Origin: Pseudofrankia coriaricola
Lineage (GTDB): Bacteria; Actinomycetota; Actinomycetes; Frankiales; Frankiaceae
Direction: 5' to 3'
Assembly: GCF_001854805.1 (NCBI RefSeq)
Contig: NZ_MBLO01000243.1
Coordinates: 62,001 to 126,000, forward strand
DNA length: 64,000 bases
Shown piece after piece: positions 2,256 to 64,000 of the stretch. Every line of letters starts with the position of its first letter. Within the stretch, counting starts at the first letter, position 1. The translations under genes were made by a program, and so were the position numbers. Below the pieces are notes generated by a model, which made no database searches, was not told the DNA's origin, and saw only the letters and a program-made list of their open reading frames with translations.

Positions 2256-3269
2256 GTGCTGCTGGAGAAGCTGTTCGGCCTCGACGAGTTCGGCGTCGCC
2301 GTCTACCGCGCGGCCGCCGGGCACCGGTACTCCGACATCGAGTCGCTGGCCGAATGGGTCGGCAGGCCGGTGCCGCAGGTCCAGGCCGAGGTGCACCGGC
2401 AGATGCAGCGCGGCCTGCTGCGCCTCGTCGGTGACACGTGGGAGGCCCAGGACCCGGCGCTGGTGCTCGAGGCGGAACACGCGTCCGAACGCGTCGAACT
2501 GGAGGCCAGCCGCTCGGTCATGGTCGAGCAGCGCGCGGCGTTATACCGAAGCGGGCTGTTCGCGGACTACCTGGCCGGCCGGCGCCGCCCCGGCCCCCAC
2601 GACCGGGTCGTCACGATCCTCGACCACCACCAGATTCTGCTGAAGATCGCCGAGCTGGTCGACAGCGCCGAGTCCCAGGTGCACTTCCTGCTCGGCGGGC
2701 AAAGCCCGGCGGGCCCGGGGCAGGTCCAGTACATCCAGGACCTGGTGTGGGGGATGGCGCGCGCCGTGGAGCGCGGGGTACGGGTCGCGTCCGTGTGGGC
2801 GCCCGAATATGTCGCCGCGGCCCGCGCGGCCAGCGGTACGCGGCGGCTGCCGCCGCTGGGATGGGTCCGCCAGAGCTCCAATGTGCCGATGCGCGCCGTC
2901 GTGGCCGACGCCCGCGCGGCCATCCTCCCGGTCGACCCGAACAACCTGGACCGGGGGGCGCTCGTCATCGAGGCCCCCAGCCTGCTCGTCATCATCACCG
3001 ACATGATCGAACGCATTCACCGCGACGCGCAGCCGCTGGCGGCCCCCCCGCCCGCCGCCGACCCCGCCGTGCAACGCCGCCAGAACGCGGTGCTCGCGCT
3101 GCTGGCGCAGGGCCATACCGACCACGTGATCGCCGCCGAGCTGGGCGTCACCATCCGCACCGTCCGCCGGGACGTCGCCGACCTCTACGAGGCTCACAAC
3201 GTCACCAGCCGCTTCGAGCTCGGCGCCGTCACGGCCAGCCTCGGCCTCCTCCCCCCGATCGAGACCTGA
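2256..3269 (+). CDS. TrmB-like / LuxR-type helix-turn-helix regulator
   Basis: Probable cytoplasmic transcription regulator of 337 residues. The N-terminal ~60 residues (LLEKLFGLDEFGVAVYRAAA onward) resemble the winged-helix of TrmB-like proteins. A central domain (HQILLKIAELVDSAESQVHF) looks like the PLD-like ligand region of that group. The C-terminus carries a LuxR-type HTH (LLAQGHTDHVIAAELGVTIR). I chose the GTG at 2256 because GAGGGAG lies seven bases upstream and similarity begins there; the frame stays open upstream to 1995, but that stretch is Pro/Arg-rich and repeat-derived. It is a stand-alone gene behind a long repeat-filled leader. Target and ligand are unknown. Confidence 0.75.
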   Translation: MLLEKLFGLDEFGVAVYRAAAGHRYSDIESLAEWVGRPVPQVQAEVHRQMQRGLLRLVGDTWEAQDPALVLEAEHASERVELEASRSVMVEQRAALYRSGLFADYLAGRRRPGPHDRVVTILDHHQILLKIAELVDSAESQVHFLLGGQSPAGPGQVQYIQDLVWGMARAVERGVRVASVWAPEYVAAARAASGTRRLPPLGWVRQSSNVPMRAVVADARAAILPVDPNNLDRGALVIEAPSLLVIITDMIERIHRDAQPLAAPPPAADPAVQRRQNAVLALLAQGHTDHVIAAELGVTIRTVRRDVADLYEAHNVTSRFELGAVTASLGLLPPIET

Positions 3270-48064: not shown

Positions 48065-48329
48065 TCATGAGGACGGCGCCGGGCACGGCCAACGAGGGCC
48101 GGCCCAGTCCGCACGCGGTCCCGCCAGGCAGAAGGCTTCCCACCGGGCCCGCGGAGCGGCCGCGCGCCTCCGCCCGTCGGCCCGGCCGGGAAGGACGCTC
48201 CCTACGGGGGCGTCACCGACGGTGCACCCCCGCCGCACGGACAGTCCGCACCGCCGCCTTTACCGGTCGTTTAATCCCGATCTCGGTAGGCTTGACAAGG
48301 GCTGGACTCCAGCGGTGCGGGGGACGGGA

Positions 48330-50147
48330 ATGACGGTCGATTCATCGGCGGACTCCGGGTTCGACCGCGACCTCCCGCCCAACTTCCGCCAGCTGGTGCC
48401 CGTCGGATCCGGGTCGGCCGGCCAGGTGTACCGGGCGTACGACGAGGCGCTGAGCCGCACCGTCGCGCTGAAGCTGTTCACCGGGCCGCTCACGGACGAC
48501 CCGGCGGCGCTCGCCGCCTTCCGCCTCGAGTGCGCGACGCTGGGCCGGCTGAGTGCCCACCCGGGCGTCGTCTCCGTCCACAGCGCCGGGGTCACCCCCA
48601 GCGGCCGCCCCTGGCTGTGCATGCGGTTCGTCGCGGGTGGCGCCCTTTCCAAGGCGCTGCGCCGCAGTGGGCCGCTCACCCAGGCCGAGGCCCTGCGCAC
48701 CGGCGTCCTCGTCGCCGACACGCTCGCCTGGGCGCACGGGCTGACCCCGCCGGTCCTGCACTGCGACGTGAAGCCGGGAAACATCCTGCTCACCGGCGAC
48801 GGGCATCCCCTGCTCAGTGACTTCGGCGTCTCGGTCTGGGTGGCGTCGGGCCGCTCGTCCGTCACCGTCAAGGGCTTCACCCAGGCCTACGCCGCGCCGG
48901 AGGTGCTCTTCCACGGCCGGTTCTCGCCGAGGTCGGAGGTGTGGAGCCTCGCGGCGACGCTGTTCGAGATGCTGACGGGCACGCCGCCGTTCGAGCAGCT
49001 GCCCGGGGAGGGCACGGGCGCCTTCATCGAGCGGGTCGGCTACGGCCTGCCCCGCGACGCCGACATAGGCCTGTCCGGGCCGCTGCGCGCGCTGCTGCGG
49101 CGGGGCCTCGCCGTCAACCGGGAGGACCGGTGGCCGTCAGCCGCCGCGTTCGCCGCGGCGATCCGGAGCACCCAGGCGGCGCTCGGCCTGCCCGTCACGC
49201 CCGCCACCCCGGCCCCGGCACCGCCCCCGTCCCACGATGTCCTCGTCGCCGACGCGCCCGTCATCCACGCCACGCTCCCGCCGTTGCTGCCCAGCCCCGC
49301 CGGCCCGCCGTCGTTGTCCAACGGGACCCCGCCCAGGGCGCGCGGCACCCCGGCGGACGGCCGGCCGGTACACCCGAGCCAGGAACCGGTAGACCCGAGC
49401 CAGGAGCCCGCGACACCCGACGACCTGGCGGGCGGCGCGGAGCAGCGGGCGCCGGGCACCGCCGCGAAGCAGCCGGGCACCGGGCCGCGCCGCACGGTGC
49501 CGCACTGGTGGATACCGGCGGCGTTCACCATCGTCGTGGTCGTCGCCCTCGCCCTGATGCTGGTACCGCGCAGCCGTGGGCCAAGCACGGTGAGCGAGCC
49601 GTCGCTCGGTACCAGCCTCAGTGCCGGCCTGCCCACCGGCGCCACGCCGACATCCTCGCTCCTGGTCGGGACGGAGCCATCGCCGCCGCCGGCCTTGACA
49701 CAGCCGGCACCGAGCGCCGCGGGCTCCACGACGCCGCCGACGGGCGGCACGCGCTCGCAGGTCCCGCCCACGCAGACGGCCCAGCCCGCCGCGGCGCAGG
49801 CCATCCTCCACTCCGGCCAGCGGATGGAACAGGGCCAGAAGCTGGTGTCGGGCAACGGCCGGTTCGTCGCGGCCCTGCAGTTCGACGGGAACCTCGTCGT
49901 GTACTCCGAAGGCCCCGGCCCGGTCACCCCCGCCTGGGAGTCCGGGACCAGCGGGACCGCGGCGGCCTACGCCGTGATGCGCGACGACGGCGACCTCGTG
50001 CTCTACGGCACCGACGAGACGACCGTGTACTGGAACTCGGGTACCCACGGGTCTGGCACGTACCTCTGGATGCGTGACGACGGTGAGCTCGTCATCTGCC
50101 TCGAGGACGGCACCGTCCTGTGGGCCCGCAGGAGCGGAAGCGGCTAG
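48330..50147 (+). CDS. Transmembrane Ser/Thr kinase with extracytoplasmic bulb-type lectin domain
   Basis: 605 residues. The kinase domain (about 20-280) has Gly-rich GSGSAGQVYRAY, Lys48 in VALKLF, catalytic HCDVKPGNILL (Asp146; Cys replaces the usual Arg) and DFG at 164-166, then YAAPEVL. A Pro-rich linker leads to one membrane helix (394-413). The outer part ends in a bulb-lectin-like domain (492-601) whose first repeat, QFDGNLVVY, matches the QxDxNxVxY mannose-site consensus; the others are degenerate. The layout suggests a receptor that binds glycans outside and phosphorylates inside. ATG 48330 has GGGGGA upstream. Confidence 0.88.
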   Translation: MTVDSSADSGFDRDLPPNFRQLVPVGSGSAGQVYRAYDEALSRTVALKLFTGPLTDDPAALAAFRLECATLGRLSAHPGVVSVHSAGVTPSGRPWLCMRFVAGGALSKALRRSGPLTQAEALRTGVLVADTLAWAHGLTPPVLHCDVKPGNILLTGDGHPLLSDFGVSVWVASGRSSVTVKGFTQAYAAPEVLFHGRFSPRSEVWSLAATLFEMLTGTPPFEQLPGEGTGAFIERVGYGLPRDADIGLSGPLRALLRRGLAVNREDRWPSAAAFAAAIRSTQAALGLPVTPATPAPAPPPSHDVLVADAPVIHATLPPLLPSPAGPPSLSNGTPPRARGTPADGRPVHPSQEPVDPSQEPATPDDLAGGAEQRAPGTAAKQPGTGPRRTVPHWWIPAAFTIVVVVALALMLVPRSRGPSTVSEPSLGTSLSAGLPTGATPTSSLLVGTEPSPPPALTQPAPSAAGSTTPPTGGTRSQVPPTQTAQPAAAQAILHSGQRMEQGQKLVSGNGRFVAALQFDGNLVVYSEGPGPVTPAWESGTSGTAAAYAVMRDDGDLVLYGTDETTVYWNSGTHGSGTYLWMRDDGELVICLEDGTVLWARRSGSG

Positions 50148-54636: not shown

Positions 54637-56022
54637 GTGGTAGGGCGACCGCATCCCGCGGCACCGCAGTCAACGCAGACGACGGCGTCGGAGCTCTACG
54701 ACGTCATCGGCGTCGGGTTCGGTCCGGCGAACCTGGCCCTGGCGATCGCGATCGAGGAGCACAACACGCGCGTTGACGAGCGGGACCGACGGCGTGCCGT
54801 CTTCCTGGAATGCCAGGAGCGGTTCGGTTGGCACCGCGGGATGCTCATCGAGGGCGCCACGATGCAGGTCTCCTACCTCAAGGACCTGGTAACGCTGCGC
54901 AACCCGACCAGCGACTTCAGTTTCCTGGCCTATCTGCACGGCCTCGGGCGGCTGGTCGACTTCATCAACCACAAGACGATGTTCCCGCTGCGCCACGAGT
55001 TCCACGACTACCTGGAGTGGGCGGCCGGCCGGCTCGACCACCTGGTCCAATACGGCCAGACGGTGACGACCCTGCGCCCAGTAGTCGAGGACGGTGAGAT
55101 CACCCACGTCGACGTCGTGAGCCAGGACGGCGACGGCCACACCGTCGTCCGCCGTGCCCGCGACGTCGTAGTCGCGCTCGGGCTGGAGCCGCGGCTTCCG
55201 GCCGGCGTCGCGCTGGATGACCGGGTCTGGCACAACCGCGATCTGCTTGACCGGCTCGGCAACCTGCCGCCGCTGCGGCACGGCCGGTTCATGGTCATTG
55301 GTGCTGGCCAGAGCGGTGCGGAGGTCACCGACCACCTGCACCGGACGTTCCCCAGCGCCGAGGTCCACGCCGTCTTCGCCCGCTACGGCTACAGCCCGGC
55401 GGACAACAGCCCGTTCGCCAACCAGATCTTCGACCCGGACGCCGTCGACGACTTCTTCGAGGCGTCGCCGGACGTCCGCCGGATGCTCACCGACTACCAC
55501 CGCTCGACCAACTACTCCGTCGTCGACATGGATCTCATCGAGGACCTGTACCGGCGGGTCTACCAGGAGAAGGTGCGCGGCCCGCGCCGCCTGCACCTGC
55601 TGCGTGCCTCCCGGCTCGCGGAGCTGGAGCGGCTGGACGACGGGGTGCGCGCGATCGTCGAGTTCCTGCCAACCGGCGAGCGACGCGACCTCGACGTCGA
55701 CGTCGTCGTGTTCGCCACCGGCTACCGGCCACGGGAGCCGCGCGCGCTGCTCGGCGAGGCCGCCGAGGCGTACCGCGTCGACGACGCGGGCCGCCCGCTG
55801 TTCACCCGCGACTACCGCCTGGTCACGGCCGGTCCCGCCACGGCCGCCGTCTACATCACGGGAGCCACCGAACACACCCACGGCATCTCGTCGACCCTGC
55901 TGTCCAACGTCGCCGTCCGCGCCGGTGAGATCCTCGCCTCCATCCTCACCCGCGCCGACTCCCCCGCCACGGCGGACGACGCCCTGGCCGGTGACCATCG
56001 CCTCGTCTCCGCGCTGCGCTGA
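54637..56022 (+). CDS. L-lysine/L-ornithine N-monooxygenase (SidA/IucD/PvdA type)
   Basis: 461-residue flavin monooxygenase that N-hydroxylates an amino-acid side chain or diamine, the first step in hydroxamate siderophores. FAD motif VIGVGFGPANLALAIAIEEH (23-42), substrate region GMLIEGATMQVSYLKDLVTL, NADPH motif MVIGAGQSGAEVTDHLHRTF and C-terminal VVFATGYRPREP identify it; SPFANQIFDPDAVDDFFEAS is also family-typical. GTG 54637 follows a GGAGG site. Upstream iron boxes fit. No siderophore synthetase or transporter gene is in the window, so the product is unknown. Confidence 0.93.
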   Translation: MVGRPHPAAPQSTQTTASELYDVIGVGFGPANLALAIAIEEHNTRVDERDRRRAVFLECQERFGWHRGMLIEGATMQVSYLKDLVTLRNPTSDFSFLAYLHGLGRLVDFINHKTMFPLRHEFHDYLEWAAGRLDHLVQYGQTVTTLRPVVEDGEITHVDVVSQDGDGHTVVRRARDVVVALGLEPRLPAGVALDDRVWHNRDLLDRLGNLPPLRHGRFMVIGAGQSGAEVTDHLHRTFPSAEVHAVFARYGYSPADNSPFANQIFDPDAVDDFFEASPDVRRMLTDYHRSTNYSVVDMDLIEDLYRRVYQEKVRGPRRLHLLRASRLAELERLDDGVRAIVEFLPTGERRDLDVDVVVFATGYRPREPRALLGEAAEAYRVDDAGRPLFTRDYRLVTAGPATAAVYITGATEHTHGISSTLLSNVAVRAGEILASILTRADSPATADDALAGDHRLVSALR

Positions 56023-56031
56023 CACCGGGAG

Positions 56032-57198
56032 CTACGCCGACTGGTGGCCGCCGAGCAGGAGCTGGCGGTAGCTGGGGAAGTCGGGGTAGCCGGTCGCCTG
56101 GTAAAGGGCGTCGGCGACGGCGCGGGCGAAGGTGTCCGCCGCGGCGGCGAGCAGCTCGTTGAGGTTGCCCGCCGGGCGGGCGCCGGTGGCCAGGGCGAAG
56201 ACGGAATCACCGTCAACCATCGTGTGCACCGGGCGGATCGCCCGCGCCATCCCGTCGTGCGCGCTCGAGGCGAGCCGCCAGCACTGGGCCTTCGTCAGTA
56301 TGGCGTCAGTCGCGACGACACCGATCGTGGTGTTCATGAGCAGGCCCGGAGCCGGCGCCTGGGCGGGCGTCGAGCCCCGCGGGCCGGACTCGTGGGCCGC
56401 CGTGGCGAAGTCCGGCGGGAACGGCCTCGGCGCCCGGTCCGAGGCCAGCCAGGCCGCGAGCAGCTGGGCGTCCGGCGGAGGTAGCTCGGCGTCCAGGTCG
56501 CCGTAGAGACGGCCGGTGCGCGGGTCGACGGCGGAGCCCGCCGAGTTGACCACGGCCAACGCCGCCACGGTCGTCCCGTCGCCGAGCACTGTCGACGCCC
56601 CGCCGACCCCGCCCGCGAGGGCGTCGCTGACCGCGCCCGTCCCGGCGCCGACGGTGCCGCGCGTCATGGGCCCGGCGGTCGCGTTGTCGTAGGCGAGCGC
56701 GCCGAGCTCCGGCCCGGGTACCGCGTGTGACGCCGGCGAGGCGCCACCGCGGCCCAGATCGAAGATCACCGCTCCGGGGACGATCGGGACGACCCCCGCC
56801 GGCCCGACCGGGAAGCCGATGTCCGCGTCCGCGAGCCGGCGCATCACCCCGTCCGCGGCTGACAGCCCGAAGGCGCTCCCGCCAGTCAGCACCACCGCGT
56901 GTACCAGCTCGACGGCGTTGCGAGGGTCGAGCAGATCGGTCTCCCGGGTCCCCGGCGACCCGCCGGCGACGTCGACTCCGCCGACCGCCCCGCCCGGCGG
57001 CGCGAGGACGACGGTCACCCCGGTCCGCCACCCGCCGCCGATCCGCTGCGCATGCCCGACGGCGATCCCCGGCACGTCCGTCAGCGACCCGCCAAGCCCC
57101 TGGGCCACCGGTCCCGTGGCGGCGCCGGTGACCGCGCCCGTGGCTACGGCCTCAGCTGGTCGGCCCGAAAGCTTCATCGCCCGCATTCTGCCGGCCAC
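56032..57198 (-). CDS. P1-family (S58, DmpA-like) peptidase
   Basis: 388-residue Ntn-like hydrolase. GGSLTDVPGIAVGHAQRIGG and VVLTGGSAFGLSAADGVMRR are N-terminal signatures. The self-cleavage site is in LLMNTTIGVVATDAILTKAQ, where cleavage would expose a Thr nucleophile. Relatives release N-terminal residues from peptides or hydrolyse beta-peptides and amides. GTG 57198 has GGAGG five bases upstream. It converges on the N-monooxygenase gene with a 9-base gap. An Ala/Thr-rich start is not a convincing signal peptide. Confidence 0.9.
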   Translation of the reverse strand: MAGRMRAMKLSGRPAEAVATGAVTGAATGPVAQGLGGSLTDVPGIAVGHAQRIGGGWRTGVTVVLAPPGGAVGGVDVAGGSPGTRETDLLDPRNAVELVHAVVLTGGSAFGLSAADGVMRRLADADIGFPVGPAGVVPIVPGAVIFDLGRGGASPASHAVPGPELGALAYDNATAGPMTRGTVGAGTGAVSDALAGGVGGASTVLGDGTTVAALAVVNSAGSAVDPRTGRLYGDLDAELPPPDAQLLAAWLASDRAPRPFPPDFATAAHESGPRGSTPAQAPAPGLLMNTTIGVVATDAILTKAQCWRLASSAHDGMARAIRPVHTMVDGDSVFALATGARPAGNLNELLAAAADTFARAVADALYQATGYPDFPSYRQLLLGGHQSA

Positions 57199-57586: not shown

Positions 57587-58966
57587 TCACCGAGCGTGGC
57601 TGCCCAGACCAGGTGGGGCGGACTGACGGAGGGCGTCGGCGAGCGACGTGTCGTGGGTGGCCGAGCGGAACCGGGAGTCGTCGAGCACCTGGCGCAGGAA
57701 CGGCACCGTCGTCGACACGCCGGGGCCGGCGAGCCGCAGCTCCTCGAGCGCGGCGCGCATCCGGCGCAGCGCGCCGTCACGGTCCGGCGCCCAGACGACG
57801 AGCTTGGCCAGCAGCGAGTCGTACATCGCCGGGATCCGGTAGCCGGGGAAGGCGTGGCTGTCCACCCGCACGAACGGCCCGCCGGGCAGGTGGCACTCCT
57901 CGATCACGCCGGGTGTCGGCGCGAAGGCGCGGGCCGGGTCCTCGGCGTTGATCCGGCACTCCAGCGCGGCGCCGCGCGGCTGGACCGCGTCCTGGGTGAG
58001 GTCGAGCTTCTCCCCGGCGGCGACCCGGAACTGCTCGGCGACGATGTCGATACCGGTGACCATCTCGGTCACGGGGTGCTCGACCTGCAGGCGGCAGTTG
58101 ACCTCCATGAAGTAGTAGTTGCCGTCCGGGTCGACGAGGAACTCGACCGTGCCGGCGCCGACGAACCCGGCCGCGCCGGTGCCACGCAGCGCGTCCCGGC
58201 CCATCCGCTCCACCAGGTCGGCGGGCAGGCCAGGGGCCGGGGTCTCCTCGACCAGCTTCTGGTGGCGGCGCTGCACCGAGCAGTCGCGGGCGCCGAGGTG
58301 CACGCCGTTGCCGTACTGGTCGAAGAGCACCTGGATCTCGACGTGCCGGGCCGACGGCAGGTAACGCTCGACATACACCCGGCCGTCGCCGAAGACAGCC
58401 TGCGCGCTGGCGCGGGTCTCGGTGTAGGCGCGTAGGAACTCCTCCGGCTGCACCACGATCCGCATGCCCCGGCCGCCGCCGCCCGCGGCCGCCTTGATGA
58501 TGACCGGGTAGCCGATGGAGTCCGCGAACGCCCGCGCCTCGTCGGCGTGGTCGAGGGCGGTGTGGCTGCCGGGCAGCAGCGGCAGGCCGGCAGCCACCAT
58601 CATCGCCCGGGCGACGGCCTTGTCACCGAGGCGTTCCAGCACCCCCGACGGCGGCCCGACGAACGTCAGCCCTTCGGCCTCGCAGACCTCGGCGAGGTCC
58701 GGGTTCTCCGAGAGGAACCCGTAGCCGGGATGGATGGCGTCCGCGCCGCCGAGCCGAGCCGCCTCGATGATCGCGGGAATGCTGAGGTAGCTGCGCCCGG
58801 AGGGCGCCGGGCCGATGTGGATGGCGCGGTCGGCCTGGTGGACCACGGCCGAGTCCCGGTCGGCGGTCGAGTAGACGGCGACGGTGCGCAGGCCGAGCTC
58901 GCGGCAGGTGCGCACGACCCGCAGCGCGATCTCGCCCCGGTTGGCGATCAGGACAGTGGTGACCAT
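57587..58966 (-). CDS. accC: Biotin carboxylase subunit of acetyl-CoA carboxylase
   Basis: 459-residue ATP-grasp enzyme that carboxylates biotin on AccB. TVLIANRGEIALRVVRTCRE, HPGYGFLSENPDLAEVCEAE, the Gly-rich loop IIKAAAGGGGRGMRIV and FMEVNCRLQVEHPVTEMVTG with catalytic Glu/Arg are all present. It is last in a leftward operon; its ATG shares one base with the accB stop (TGATG). The gene lacks a fused BCCP domain, unlike most actinobacterial AccA-type alpha chains, so this is a bacterial-type four-part ACC. Confidence 0.95.
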   Translation of the reverse strand: MVTTVLIANRGEIALRVVRTCRELGLRTVAVYSTADRDSAVVHQADRAIHIGPAPSGRSYLSIPAIIEAARLGGADAIHPGYGFLSENPDLAEVCEAEGLTFVGPPSGVLERLGDKAVARAMMVAAGLPLLPGSHTALDHADEARAFADSIGYPVIIKAAAGGGGRGMRIVVQPEEFLRAYTETRASAQAVFGDGRVYVERYLPSARHVEIQVLFDQYGNGVHLGARDCSVQRRHQKLVEETPAPGLPADLVERMGRDALRGTGAAGFVGAGTVEFLVDPDGNYYFMEVNCRLQVEHPVTEMVTGIDIVAEQFRVAAGEKLDLTQDAVQPRGAALECRINAEDPARAFAPTPGVIEECHLPGGPFVRVDSHAFPGYRIPAMYDSLLAKLVVWAPDRDGALRRMRAALEELRLAGPGVSTTVPFLRQVLDDSRFRSATHDTSLADALRQSAPPGLGSHAR

Positions 58967-59706
58967 CAGGCCGCGGCCACCGGGGCGAGCAGGAACAGCC
59001 GGTCGCCGAACTCGACGCCGCCGCCGTCCGGCCGGCACACCTCGACGATCCGGCCGGACTGGCTGGCCTCGATCGGGATCATCAGCTTCATCACCTCGAG
59101 GATGGCGAGCTGCTGGCCGGCCTTGACCGTGTCGCCGACCCGGACGAACGGGCGCGCCCCCGGCTCGGGCGCGTGGTAGAAGACCCCGACGCTGGGCGAG
59201 GTCACCTCGATCTGGCCCGCGGCCGGCGGCCCACCGGCCTCCCGGCCAGCCTGGCGGTCGTCGTCGGCAGCCGCGCCGGTGGCGGTGGCGGCGCCCGGTG
59301 CGGCGCCCCTGCCCGTGGCGGCGCCCGCCGGCGCCAGGTCCCGTCGGGGCGCCGGGACACCGCGCCGCGACCAGCCGTTCGCGGCGGCCTGGTCGACGCC
59401 GTTCGTGGTGGGCTCGTCCCAGCCGTATCCCGCCGTGCCGGCGGAGCCGCCGTCCGACCAGGAGACCTCGACGGTCAGCGGCCCGGCGGTGACGCGCAGG
59501 CGCGTCGGGGGCCGGCCGGCCTCCTCGCACAGCGCGACAGCGTTGTGCCGGACCGCGGTGAGGACGAGGTCCAGGTCGGCGACGCCGAGGCCGGCCAGAG
59601 CCGGGCCGGAGTGGTCGGCGACGCCGGGCGGCGTATGGCCGTCGCCGGCCAGGTCCGCGCCGGATGGAGGAGTGTCGGGGCGGCGGGCGGTACTGATGGT
59701 GCTCAT
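58966..59706 (-). CDS. accB: Biotin carboxyl carrier protein
   Basis: 246 residues. The biotinyl domain at the C-terminus has [15 protein letters not shown] with Lys207 as biotin site and the preceding [20 protein letters not shown] thumb region. The N-terminal ~165 residues are Ala/Gly/Pro-rich with a conserved patch ([20 protein letters not shown]) unlike the usual BCCP linker. The start overlaps accDA by four bases (ATGA), tying its synthesis to it. Confidence 0.95.
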
Positions 59707-61667
59707 GCGGGGGCTCCCTGCTCTGCGGCGGTCGGGTCTGCCTTCTCGGCGCCACCGTCGGCCACAGGCCCCCCGTTTCCGTCGGCCTGCCCGTGTGGCG
59801 CGTCGGCGCCGGCCGCCGGGAACGCGGTGGACGCCGTCGGCGCGGGTGAGGTCGGCGGCGTGGGCTCGGCGGACGGCGCGGATGCGGTGGACGGCGACTC
59901 CGGGGACGGCGCGGGCGCGCCAAAGCGGCGAAAGCGGGCGTGCCGGCCGGCGACGAGTTCGGCCGGCCCCTGGCCGACGAGCTCGCCGAGAACGTCGCGC
60001 AGCGCGGCCTCGACGAGAGCGGCGGCCTGTACGGGGTCAGCCCCCGAGCCGCCGTCGGGCTCGGGCACGACGGCGTCGATGACGCCGAGGCCGAGCAGCT
60101 GGCGGGCGTCGACCCGCAGCGCCTCCGCGGCCCGCGGCGCCGCCGCCGGGTCCTTCCACAGGATCGCGGCGCACCCCTCGGGGCTGATCACCGAGTAGAC
60201 GGCGTTCGCGCACATGAGGACCCGGTCGGCGACGGCGAGCGCGAGCGCTCCCCCGCTGCCGCCCTCGCCGGTGACGAGCGCGACGACGGGCACCGGGAGC
60301 GCGCCCATGAGCCGGAGGTTCTCGGCGATCGCGACCGACTGGCCGCGTTCCTCGGCCTCGATCCCGGGGTGGGCGCCCGCCGTGTCGATGAAGGTGACGA
60401 CGGGCAGGCCGAGCTTCGCGGCCAGCCGCATCACCCGGGCCGCCTTGCGGTAGCCGGCGGGGCTCGGCATGCCGAAGTTGCGCGCCGTCAGCTCCTCGAC
60501 GGTGTGCCCCTTCTGGGTTCCCATGACGGCGACGCCGAGGTTGCCGAGCCGGCCGAGGCCCGCGACCATGGCCGGGCAGTCGGCACCCGCCCTGTCCCCG
60601 TGCAGCTCGTTGAAGTCGTCGAGCATGAGCGAGACCAGGTCCAGCGTGGTCGGCCGGGTGAGCCCGCGCGCCAGCCGGACGACGTCCCACGGGTGCCTGG
60701 GCGGCAGCCGCGACGGGTCGGTGATCATGCTTCCCGACGGCGCGGGACCAGCCGGCGCGGCGCCACTCGGCGCCGGCTGGCTGTCGGCCGCCTGGGCCGT
60801 GGCGGGCGCGCGGCGGCCCGAGGCCGCGACGGTCAGCAGGCGCGACAGCATCGCGCGCAGGTCGCCGCGCGGCACGATCTGGTCGACGATGCCGTGCTCC
60901 AGCAGGAACTCGGCCGTCTGGAAGCCCGGCGGCAGGCTCTGGCGGATCGTCTGCTCGATCACCCGCGGCCCCGCGAAGCCGAGCCGGGCACCCGGCTCGG
61001 CCACGATCACGTCGCACAGGGTCGCGAACGACGCGGCCACGCCGCCGAACGTCGGATCGGTGACCAGCGCGATGGTGAGCACGCCGGCCTCGTCGAGCCG
61101 GCCGAGCATCTGGCTGGTCTTGGCCATCTGCATGAGGGAGAGCACGCCCTCCTGCATGCGGGCTCCCCCGGACGACGTCACCAGCAGCAGTGGCACCCGC
61201 TCGGCGAGCGCCAGCTCCCCCGCGCGGGTGATGGCCTCCCCGACCGCGGAGCCGAGGCTGCCGCCGAGAAACTGGAAGTCCATGGCGGCGACGACGACCG
61301 GCGCCCCGTCCAGGTGGCCGCGCGCGCAGAGCACCGCCTCGTCGAGGCCGGTCGCCGTCTTGGCCTTCGCCAGCCGCTCGGCGTACGGCCGGGTGTCTGT
61401 GAACCGCAGCGGGTCGGGGTCCGCCGGCTCGGGCGTCGGGAGCTCGGACCAGCCTGGATCGAGCAGCAGCGCGATCCGCTCCGGCGCGGTCAGCGGGGCG
61501 TGCCAGCCGCAGTCGGGACAGACCCGGGCGGTCGCGAGGAACCGCTTGCCATAGAGCAGTGCGCGGCAGCGCCCGCACAGGTGCCACGCCGACCGGTCGA
61601 CGACGTCTCGGCCCGCGCCGGCTTCCCCGGCGGGCCGCGCGGTGGCGGGCGCTCCGGAGGCGCTCAC
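59703..61667 (-). CDS. Fused carboxyltransferase beta-alpha of acetyl-CoA carboxylase (AccD-AccA)
   Basis: 654 residues. The beta part (about 1-285) has a zinc finger CGRC-x15-CPDC and [20 protein letters not shown] with [20 protein letters not shown]. After an Ala/Pro linker the alpha part follows ([60 protein letters not shown]). A Pro/Ala tail ends the protein. Transfers CO2 from biotin to acetyl-CoA, making malonyl-CoA. ATGA overlap with the pfaD-like gene upstream ties malonyl supply to the lipid synthase. Confidence 0.95.
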
Positions 61668-63415
61668 GCCGCGCCCCGGTACGCGACGGGGCCACCGGCG
61701 ACGAGGGTGGCGGCGACGGAGCCGGCGGGTGCGCCGGCGGGTGGCCGGTAGCCGGCCGCGGCGGCCGGCAGGTACCCGCCGGCGAAGCGCAGGGCGGCCG
61801 CCCGGGCGGCGTAGGCCGCGCCGAGCATCAGCTCATCCGCGACGTCGACCACGCTGCGGCTGGTCACGTCGGCGAGGTAGCTGCCCTCGGCCCACTCGTT
61901 GAACGCGCCGAGCGCCGGGCCGCACCAGATCTGGTAGTCGGTGACCCGGTCGGCGGCCGCGGAGATCGCCCAGCTCGACGACAGGCCGAGGTACCAGCGG
62001 AATACCAGCGCCATCCGCCGCTTCGGGTTGCCCTCGGCGCGGGTGATCTGCTCGGGGTCGCGGCGGTTGAAGTAGGCGACGGTGTCGGCCCAGACATCGG
62101 CGACCGGGCGGCGCAGCACCGAACGCTCCAGCCAGTCGACGTCGGCGGCGGGCAGCGCCTCGAGCCCGTCGTGCGCCCGGTACATCTCCAGCAGCCGCCG
62201 GGCGCGGCCGGCGAACATCGTGCCGGACCGCAGCACCTGGACCTCGGCGCCGATCTCGAACATGTCCGACGCGGGCGCGAGGTCGACGTCGGTCGGGCCG
62301 GCGCGGCCCAGCAGCGCCTTCGCCGGCTCCGACTGGCCGGACTCGACGCACGACTGGTTGACCGAGCCGGTGACCACGTAGGCGGCGCCCATCGCGAACG
62401 CGGCCAGCACGGCCGCGGGCGTGCCGATGCCGCCCGCGGCGCCGACCCGTGGCGGGCGCCGGTAGCCGAGCTCGGCGGCGACGGCGTCGCGCAGCCGGAT
62501 GATCTCCGGGAGGAGCACCGCGAGCGGGCGACGATCGGTGTGCCCGCCGGAGTCGGCCTCGACGGTGACGTCGTCGGCCATCGGCACCGCCCTCGCCAGC
62601 TCGGCCTGCTCGGCGGTGACGGTCCCCGCCGCCACCAGCGCCCGCACGATCGGCTCGGGCGCGGGGCGCAGGAAGTGCTCCGCGACCTCCTGGCGGGACA
62701 GCTTCGCGACCACCCGGTGGCTGGCGACGGGCCGGCCGGACCGGTCGCGGTGCAGGCCCGAGACACGGTAGGCGACGATCTGCGGGGTGAGCGCCACGAA
62801 CGCCGACGCCTCGACGCAGCGAACCTGGTGGCGCAGGCAGGCGGCCAGGGTGGCCCGCTCCAGCTCCAGCTCGTTCGGGCTGTGGATGAGGTTGCAGGCG
62901 AACGGCGCCGCGCCGACGCCGCGGCGGATCTCGGCGAGCGCGGTGTCCAGCCGGTCGGGCAGGACACCCGCGGCTCCGAACGACGCGAGCAGGCCGGCGC
63001 GGGCCAGGGCGATGACCATCCGGGGCGAGGCGATGCCGTTGGCCATCGCGCCGGTCATGTAGGACAGGCGGACGCCGTGGTCGGCACGGAACCCGGCCGC
63101 GCCGAGCTGCTCGGGCAGTGTGGGCGGGGCGACGGCGAGCACCGCCGCGCCGGCGGCGTGGGCGGCCGCCGGGTCCGCGGTCACCGCGAGCCGGCCCGCC
63201 TGGTCGCGGACCAGCAGGCAGGGGTTCCCCACCCGGGCAAGCGCCGCGTAGATGTCGCGCCCCGTGCGTCCGAGACCGTCGGCGTCGAGGGTGGCCGGCA
63301 CGTCGGCGCCTCGGCCGGCCGCGCGCGGGCCGCCCGCCGCGGGCCGGACCGCCTGGGGTGGGACGGATGTCATGGGCGGGGCCGGTCGTGCGAGGGCTGG
63401 GGGTGGTGTCGTCAC
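61664..63415 (-). CDS. pfaD: PfaD-type enoyl reductase of a PUFA/secondary-lipid synthase
   Basis: 583-residue FMN TIM-barrel protein of the nitronate-monooxygenase-like PfaD family, a trans-acting enoyl reductase. Seen: [20 protein letters not shown] and [20 protein letters not shown] (FMN barrel), [40 protein letters not shown] with [20 protein letters not shown], and the PfaD-specific C-terminus ([33 protein letters not shown]). GTG 63415 starts five bases after the upstream dehydratase gene and has AAGGAG upstream. It reduces the double bond left by the dehydratase during chain building. Confidence 0.93.
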
Positions 63416-63420
63416 GATGC

Positions 63421-64000
63421 TCAGGCTCCTTCGCCGCGCTCGCCGCGCCCGCCGGTCGGGACGAGGTCGCCCACGTCCTGGCCGCGCGCGTCGGCGGCGC
63501 GGATCTCCGCCGCTATGTCGGTGAGTCCGTAGATGCGCAGTCCCGGCTTCCAGACGCTGGCATCGGCGACGACCCGGACCCGTCCCGGGCCGCGCAGGAC
63601 CTCGCGGATGTGCGCCTCGATGGTCATCTCGCCGTCCTCGGCGAGGATCTGGCCCCGGTACCGCCAGCTCATCGGCAGGCCGGTCGGCAGGACGAACACC
63701 GGTTCGTCGAGCCCGTCGGCCAGGCCGGTGTCGACCATCCACTCCTGGATCGCCTGGATGACGGCCTCGATGCCAAGCGAGCCGGGCATCACCGGGTCGA
63801 GCCAGAAGTGCCGGGAGAAGAACCAGTCGTCGGCGCGTACCTCGCGGGTCGCGTGCAGGTAGCCGCGCCCGTGGTCGCCGCCGCCGTCGACGACGGTGAC
63901 CTCGTCGAGCAGCGCCATCGCGCCGGTCGCGCACAGCGGCGCGCCGGCCGCGCGGCGGCCGGCCACGTCGATGGTGCGCGCCGCCGCGGCGGGCGGCCGG
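63421..64000 (-). CDS. PfaC-like protein, C-terminal FabA-type dehydratase domain (partial)
   Basis: The last 193 codons of a gene extending past the right edge; no stop or start interrupts the frame up to base 64000. FFSRHFWLDPVMPGSLGIEA is the hot-dog dehydratase signature (catalytic His in RHF) seen in PfaC/HglC C-termini, and VVADASVWKPGLRIYGLTDI closes the domain. It should dehydrate 3-hydroxyacyl-ACP. The ketosynthase and ACP modules, if present, lie outside the window. Confidence 0.88.
   Translation of the reverse strand, partial: RPPAAAARTIDVAGRRAAGAPLCATGAMALLDEVTVVDGGGDHGRGYLHATREVRADDWFFSRHFWLDPVMPGSLGIEAVIQAIQEWMVDTGLADGLDEPVFVLPTGLPMSWRYRGQILAEDGEMTIEAHIREVLRGPGRVRVVADASVWKPGLRIYGLTDIAAEIRAADARGQDVGDLVPTGGRGERGEGA

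Follow-up and report, generated by a model that had tools for sequence, protein, structure and literature searches.

Where does a synthase of the polyunsaturated fatty acid (PUFA) type obtain its malonyl-CoA? Marine bacteria and myxobacteria supply the best-known examples of such enzymes, which are assumed to use the common malonyl-CoA pool of the cell, and PfaABCD systems usually rely on the housekeeping acetyl-CoA carboxylase (ACC). The question is raised by a stretch of 64,000 nucleotides from the 11.2 Mb genome of Pseudofrankia coriaricola, bases 62001-126000 of contig NZ_MBLO01000243.1 (C243 below), which we call the window and in which a dehydratase (DH) gene and a gene for a PfaD-type enoyl reductase (ER) are followed by genes for an entire ACC. 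Our reading, to which we give a probability of about 0.62, is that this operon encodes an iterative fatty-acid/polyketide synthase of the PUFA type, with a single ketosynthase (KS) and with its own Escherichia coli-type ACC.

The operon and its proteins

The original prediction described a leftward series of DH, PfaD, AccDA, AccB and AccC with junctions of +5, -4, -4 and -1 bases, and a check of the coordinates confirms the five genes and the four junctions as described (Table 1). It had made a PfaA-like gene with KS and acyl carrier protein (ACP) domains upstream a test of its reading, and such a gene lies just outside the window. Its description of the first gene as a PfaC-like dehydratase has to be narrowed: DH domains are present, but only the 3' part of the gene is in the window, and the whole gene (C243:125421-128156, 911 residues) lacks the KS-chain length factor (KS-CLF) region. 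The overlapping genes would fit coupled translation, and a promoter and terminator scan found no terminators. The GDSL hydrolase gene and pfaA are separated by 144 bases, so a separate promoter is possible there.

Table 1. Genes of the operon; positions count from the first base of the window unless prefixed with C243
Feature	Position	Strand	Remarks
FAD oxidoreductase	frame C243:135949-137148	same strand as operon	heads the operon, upstream of GDSL hydrolase
GDSL hydrolase	frame C243:135197-135850	same strand as operon	upstream of PfaA
PfaA	ATG C243:135052, stop ends 128159	same strand as operon	2297 aa; 2 bases before DH
DH gene, 3' part (PfaC-like dehydratase without KS/CLF)	63421..64000	minus	FabA-like domain PF07977; continues past the window to C243:128156
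PfaD-type enoyl reductase	61664..63415	minus	GTG start, 5 bases past the DH stop; TIGR02814 612 bits
AccDA, fused carboxyltransferase beta + alpha, 654 aa	59703..61667	minus	GTG start; 4-base overlap (GTGA) with the PfaD stop
AccB, biotin carboxyl carrier protein, long N-terminal extension	58966..59706	minus	ATG start; 4-base overlap (ATGA)
AccC, biotin carboxylase	57587..58966	minus	ATG start; 1-base overlap with the AccB stop (TGATG)

PfaA has the domain order KS, acyltransferase (AT), ACP and ketoreductase (KR), ends in a DH-like region, carries the KS Cys/His/His, AT GHS and ACP DSIK motifs together with those of the KR, and scores 1433 bits against TIGR02813 (cut-off 1010). No other PfaA in the genome passes this cut-off, and a single one likewise does so in each of two genomes that we take to be Frankia alni ACN14a (G012, which also fits the gene coordinates of PMC10252897) and F. 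casuarinae CcI3 (G016). PfaD passes the TIGR02814 cut-off of 449 bits, and a profile built from 16 relatives finds the PfaD of PUFA synthases first among solved structures (6lkc, 720 bits; 4yx6, 709 bits), with trans-AT enoyl reductases scoring lower (4cw5, 507 bits; 4z38, 430 bits).

The separate DH protein contains one clear FabA-like domain (PF07977, residues 747-877, 120 bits), and the His and Glu of its HFxLDPVxPGSxGxE motif are invariant across 18 aligned rows. A structure model of the orthologue from Pseudofrankia asymbiotica (mean pLDDT 77.6, pTM 0.77; low confidence over roughly residues 1-170 and at 275-309) matches best the DH domain of a fatty acid synthase (2cf2), then chains of the polyketide synthase (PKS) PsoA and FabA, and repeated helix-and-sheet units ahead of the C-terminal FabA-like domain may be further hot-dog folds. 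The idea that a KS or CLF is hidden in the N-terminal part was rejected, as Pfam and Protein Data Bank sequence searches gave zero KS matches, and it finds no support in the 50 listed fold matches either, which comprise dehydratases, further proteins of the hot-dog kind and chains of PKSs, without any that is named a separate ketosynthase. The whole locus (L009) has one KS match and the DH protein no KS domain; the system therefore appears to be of a single-ketosynthase PUFA type.

The carboxylase is, as predicted, a full bacterial-type ACC with AccA, AccD, AccB and AccC all present. The fused AccDA passes the cut-offs for both of its halves (AccD, TIGR00515, 322 bits against 317; AccA, TIGR00513, 327 bits against 319), is of the E. 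coli type and has a CGRC...CPDC zinc ribbon. AccB passes PF00364 (72 bits) and has the biotin motif EVMKL at residue 204, its TIGR00531 score being below the cut-off (86.5 against 115 bits), while AccC lies above the cut-off of NF006367 (614 against 597 bits) and below that of TIGR00514 (607 against 626 bits).

Is this carboxylase dedicated to the synthase, as was claimed? A search of the genome with TIGR00513 finds one strong AccA, at the operon (326.7 bits; next 90.5 bits), and the five congeners without the cluster (G001-G004 and G006) have nothing above 94 bits. More widely in the family, an AccA of at least 300 bits is present in all 24 genomes with the DH gene except G028, and in only one (G018) of the 11 without it. 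Because the operon copy is the genome's only strong E. coli-type AccA and the five cluster-less congeners have none, the ACC, judged from these profile scores, is dedicated to the PUFA-type synthase.

The AccDA-AccB-AccC cassette itself is not new, because other copies exist beside KS-like genes. Nine further loci were fetched from some family genomes; two (L182 and L183) belong to the PUFA-type operon kind, and seven have KS-like matches nearby (two matches in 4 loci, one in 3), whose size and order suggest the type II kind, three of the seven having been viewed gene by gene. These cassettes share functions and order with the window's (AccD 56-65% and AccA 58-64% identical) but differ in their partners, which are KS-like genes rather than PUFA-type PfaA and PfaD, and in their position on the AccDA tree, where the operon copies form one clade (34 rows, SH-aLRT 96) that leaves outside 7 other Frankiaceae copies and one from Streptomyces. 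The novelty is the tie to a PUFA-type synthase.

Conservation of the linkage

The DH protein has a match in 25 of 58 related genomes, its own included, namely in 24 of the 35 genomes of the window's family plus one weaker match elsewhere. PfaD and a complete set of ACC genes stand in the window's order at 17 of 20 family loci; contig ends interrupt 2 of the others, and the last (L059, the second copy of G032) lacks PfaD and ACC alike. We also scanned species genomes, keeping the best 80 of 143 relatives, to which all wider counts below refer, and typing locus content by tblastn and a script. This labelled 17 loci as KS-CLF (Streptomyces/Kitasatospora) and 63 as single-KS, the latter including L116, which is mislabelled and was left out; L098, L101, L109, L137 and others with little or no upstream DNA were assigned to the single-KS kind by the relationships of their DH and PfaD. 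Single-KS loci of other species whose downstream sequence extends for 7 kb or more number 48: PfaD stands with a full set of ACC genes at 27 of them, PfaD occurs without ACC at 10 (Rhodococcus, some Nocardia and Streptomyces himastatinicus) and both are missing at 11, one of the last (L065) having neither a KS nor an AT match upstream. A complete ACC thus accompanies 27 of 37 PfaD-bearing loci and 0 of 11 PfaD-less ones. The predicted PfaD-AccDA-AccB-AccC order is found across families, with Nocardia, Amycolatopsis and Actinokineospora among the carriers; the version of Rhodococcus qingshengii (L095) is without ACC. The closest PfaD is that of P. asymbiotica (L061), 97% identical over 513 columns.

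The gene overlaps recur as well. In the 27 complete loci, which include the near-identical P. asymbiotica, overlaps of -1 or -4 bases occur between PfaA and DH in 21 of 25, DH and PfaD in 23 of 27, PfaD and AccDA in 19 of 27, AccDA and AccB in 24 of 27, and AccB and AccC in 22 of 27. Taking the start nearest each stop favours overlaps, a bias carried equally by a control in which the identical procedure was applied to random stops and gave 20%; the recurrent overlaps exceed chance. Moreover, PfaD distances over 32 loci correlate with those of AccC (0.915), DH (0.827), AccA (0.815) and AccD (0.800), with 0 of 999 permutations as high for any partner.

On the PfaD tree, the distribution of the ACC label can be explained with 6 changes, where shuffled labels need 14.4; this would agree with early acquisition of the ACC genes and several later losses, as far as such a tree can suggest. 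Frankiaceae rows stand in four places, six F. alni-type rows lying beside non-Frankiaceae ones, and repeated uptake of the operon by Frankiaceae is possible, with support values of only 85-89 on the deep branches. Near the DH gene of two Nocardia loci without PfaD lies a distantly related carboxylase pair (32-34% and 48%; L069:14541-16212 and L072:14705-16397), which may mean that a carboxylase became linked to a single-KS synthase a second time, independently.

Product and alternative explanations

By analogy with the established functions of these families, AccC would carboxylate the biotin on AccB, and AccDA would transfer the carboxyl group to acetyl-CoA to give malonyl-CoA. The AT of PfaA would then load the malonyl unit onto the ACP and the single KS extend the chain, which the KR would reduce, the DH-like end of PfaA and the separate DH protein dehydrate, and PfaD reduce at selected double bonds. 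The acid could be released by the GDSL hydrolase or by a neighbouring hot-dog thioesterase, modified by the FAD oxidoreductase, and activated for insertion into lipid by a FadD-type acyl-CoA ligase; the thioesterase gene, which is divergent, and the ligase gene lie further upstream of the FAD oxidoreductase. The product would most likely be a long-chain fatty acid. We infer from the gene set that the enzymes are active, the genes co-transcribed, the product of this class, release and activation as outlined, and the coupling beneficial; the flux of malonyl-CoA, which the original prediction held to be locked to the synthase, may be so. It is tempting to go further and speculate that in an actinobacterial clade of such synthases the carboxylase and synthase form one complex which passes malonyl-CoA on directly, that the product is a long-chain polyunsaturated or oxidised fatty acid, new to the literature and destined for glycerolipids, and that symbiotic Frankia have kept these systems or repeatedly taken them up, but we regard this bolder version as doubtful.

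The neighbours of the operon were surveyed at 47 loci (26 of the 27 complete ones, 11 PfaD-less and 10 PfaD only). Recurrent genes encode an acyl-CoA ligase (at least 14 loci), a hot-dog thioesterase (at least 11), a metallophosphoesterase (at least 7) and a fatty-acid desaturase (at least 4), as well as parts of an ABC transporter resembling those for sn-glycerol-3-phosphate uptake, with permeases and binding protein at no fewer than 15-17 loci and the ATPase at 6 or more. The ATPase passes the cut-off of the UgpC subfamily (452 against 432 bits), and the UgpE match is far under its own (116 against 297 bits). These neighbours would point weakly to a lipid, because their sharing may reflect shared descent.

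Several observations weigh against our reading. The KS-CLF that forms part of PfaC in known PUFA synthases is absent, the C-terminal PKS-DH match of PfaA is weak (19.7 bits, sub-threshold in Pfam), and none of the nine operon and flank proteins scanned has a phosphopantetheinyl transferase (PPTase; ACPS) domain. This copy of PfaA has a single ACP, where P. asymbiotica has two and other relatives up to five matches, although it is possible that a repeat was collapsed in assembly; tandem ACPs are usual in PUFA synthases and were not required by Shulse and Allen. Linkage to ACC genes is not indispensable, since it is missing from 10 loci of this clade that do carry PfaD. In addition, one promoter-like site lies within accC (0.1 expected), the neighbour counts are lower bounds, many flanks ending at 10 kb or at a contig end, and the window's own downstream flank has an S58 peptidase gene and a Lys/Orn monooxygenase gene next to accC and no transporter.

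Could the product instead be a non-lipid polyketide, for example a polyene or an aromatic compound, with the ACC as a general polyketide supply module and PfaD and DH as trans-acting tailoring enzymes? The seven further cassettes near KS-like genes would suit this, and so would the FAD oxidoreductase at the head of the operon, whose class includes polyketide oxygenases. We nevertheless consider it unlikely, given that PfaA and PfaD fit PUFA-synthase families best, that the neighbours are of a fatty-acid type, and that the operon AccDA forms a clade separate from the other copies.

The original prediction also guessed at a lipid of the nitrogen-fixing vesicle envelope, and this, or another lipid of symbiosis, seems improbable to us. 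nifH passes the cut-off in 25 of the 35 family genomes, and the DH gene is present in 21 of these 25 against 3 of the 10 without nifH (Fisher p = 0.004). On an rpoB tree of 34 genomes, which leaves out G010 (partial rpoB), nifH changed only twice, leaving 2 independent pairs, and therefore the correlation is without independent support. The window's own genome has no nifH (best 27.9 bits against a cut-off of 394), and its sister G005 and the nifH-less G011 (genus code g5), which carries the operon apparently on two contigs (L051 and L182), also have the operon without nifH. Genera not known for nitrogen fixation are also among the carriers, and Nocardia, Amycolatopsis and Actinokineospora are not known to make such vesicles; the operon is thus not restricted to nitrogen fixers, among family genomes or the wider loci. 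Moreover, the available parts of PMC5745019 describe the vesicle envelope as hopanoid.

A symbiotic link has some support in print. In the consulted parts of PMC10252897, FRAAL3189, 3191 and 3194-3196 are among 108 conserved genes that symbiotic clusters 1-3 share and that CN3 and DC12 lack, and by the coordinates given there these five lie in or adjoin the ACN14a copy of the operon (FRAAL3191-3196 and onward). They include the FAD oxidoreductase, DH ('fabA beta-ketoacyl synthase'), PfaD ('pksE') and AccDA ('accA'), with a LysR gene nearby; the same parts of that paper name accA but contain no discussion of a lipid synthase. As the window shows, operon genes from this symbiosis list can persist in a member of the genus that has no nifH. 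FRAAL3158/3159, ACC proteins less abundant in nodules according to the consulted text of PMC8951365, were considered as the operon's ACC and rejected on the position of the ACN14a copy; the term 'FRAAL319' was not found in the main text of that proteome study, which is thus silent on this copy. F. alni also has a second PfaD beside a PfaA-like gene (G012:C1:1796429-1797751; FRAAL1675 by coordinates), which the symbiosis table of PMC10252897, as far as consulted, lists too, and genes similar to it occur in G014, G017 and G029.

That the acc genes are mere neighbours without a functional tie, or the host's housekeeping ACC, is very improbable: the ten PfaD-bearing loci without them would agree with it, but the conserved overlaps, the correlated distances, the confinement of a full ACC to loci with PfaD and the want of an E. 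coli-type AccA in the five cluster-less congeners all speak against it.

Related systems and significance

With the pfaABCDE omega-3 PUFA synthases of Shewanella and Moritella, the operon shares PfaA (KS-AT-ACP-KR), a FabA-like DH domain and the PfaD enoyl reductase, but it lacks KS-CLF in the PfaC position, PfaB and, among the operon proteins, PfaE, and has instead a DH-like PfaA end, one ACP and the ACC genes. Other relatives are the Streptomyces KS-CLF-DH + PfaD clusters (such as L100 and L112), in which PfaA likewise has a C-terminal DH-like region and a related DH protein is directly followed by PfaD; they differ in a second KS-type region ahead of the DH domains and in having AccD within 8.5 kb in 0 of the 16 with 7 kb downstream. 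AccD-like DNA (54-55%) lies about 9 kb downstream of the DH gene in four Streptomyces KS-CLF loci (L115, L124, L134 and L139). By domain content these clusters would resemble Type L of Shulse and Allen (2011), who, in the consulted parts of PMC3098273, sort secondary-lipid synthases into Types A-T and place an ACC gene beside one other cluster (Koribacter, Type R).

Type M in that scheme occurs in genomes that also host the window-type operon (F. alni, CcI3, EAN1pec and others), but is said there to carry a PPTase domain, which the scanned window-type operon proteins lack. We rejected an assignment of the window operon to Type M, since the PPTase of CcI3 fits another locus, L184 (ER-like-KS-AT-ACP-KR and KS-AT-DH-PPTase), which may be the real Type M. 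Its counterpart L185 (G000:C271:36000-53000) has an N-terminal NMO/ER-like domain ahead of KS-AT-KR and a second KS-AT gene; L185 and further genes on C86, C256 and C257 are PfaA-like and below the TIGR02813 cut-off.

In Nocardia brasiliensis IFM 10847, the 'cluster #11' pfaA (KS/AT/ACP/ACP/KR) has a predicted PUFA product according to PMC4035055, as far as consulted. This cluster is presumably our L133, from the same strain, which differs from the window operon in having no linked ACC; the term 'acetyl-CoA carboxylase' was not found in the main text of PMC4035055. Strains of Rhodococcus erythropolis accumulate PUFA by a mechanism that PMC7502451, in its consulted parts, calls not elucidated. 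The ACC-less Rhodococcus operon would be a candidate for it; R. erythropolis PR4 stands for Type Q in the scheme of Shulse and Allen, with which the ACC-less R. qingshengii locus (L095) was compared. Thus, parts of the system are already in print (the Nocardia 'pfaA' and the ACN14a genes of the symbiosis table), and the open-access literature, consulted mostly as titles and abstracts, yielded no description of the ACC-coupled operon.

Elsewhere in the window, a siderophore-type L-lysine/L-ornithine N-monooxygenase gene (54637-56022; PF13434, 366 bits) is convergent with the S58 peptidase gene (56032-57198, minus strand), and a Ser/Thr protein kinase with a long C-terminal extension is encoded at 48222-50147.

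In a widespread group of soil- and plant-associated bacteria, the genes for carboxylase and synthase overlap within a single operon, which allows supply and assembly to be tested as one unit. For Frankia, the operon offers a concrete gene set for a putative lipid, and part of this set is already found in a symbiosis list in print; its ACC genes may also be of use as a natural module where the supply of malonyl-CoA is to be engineered in high-GC hosts.

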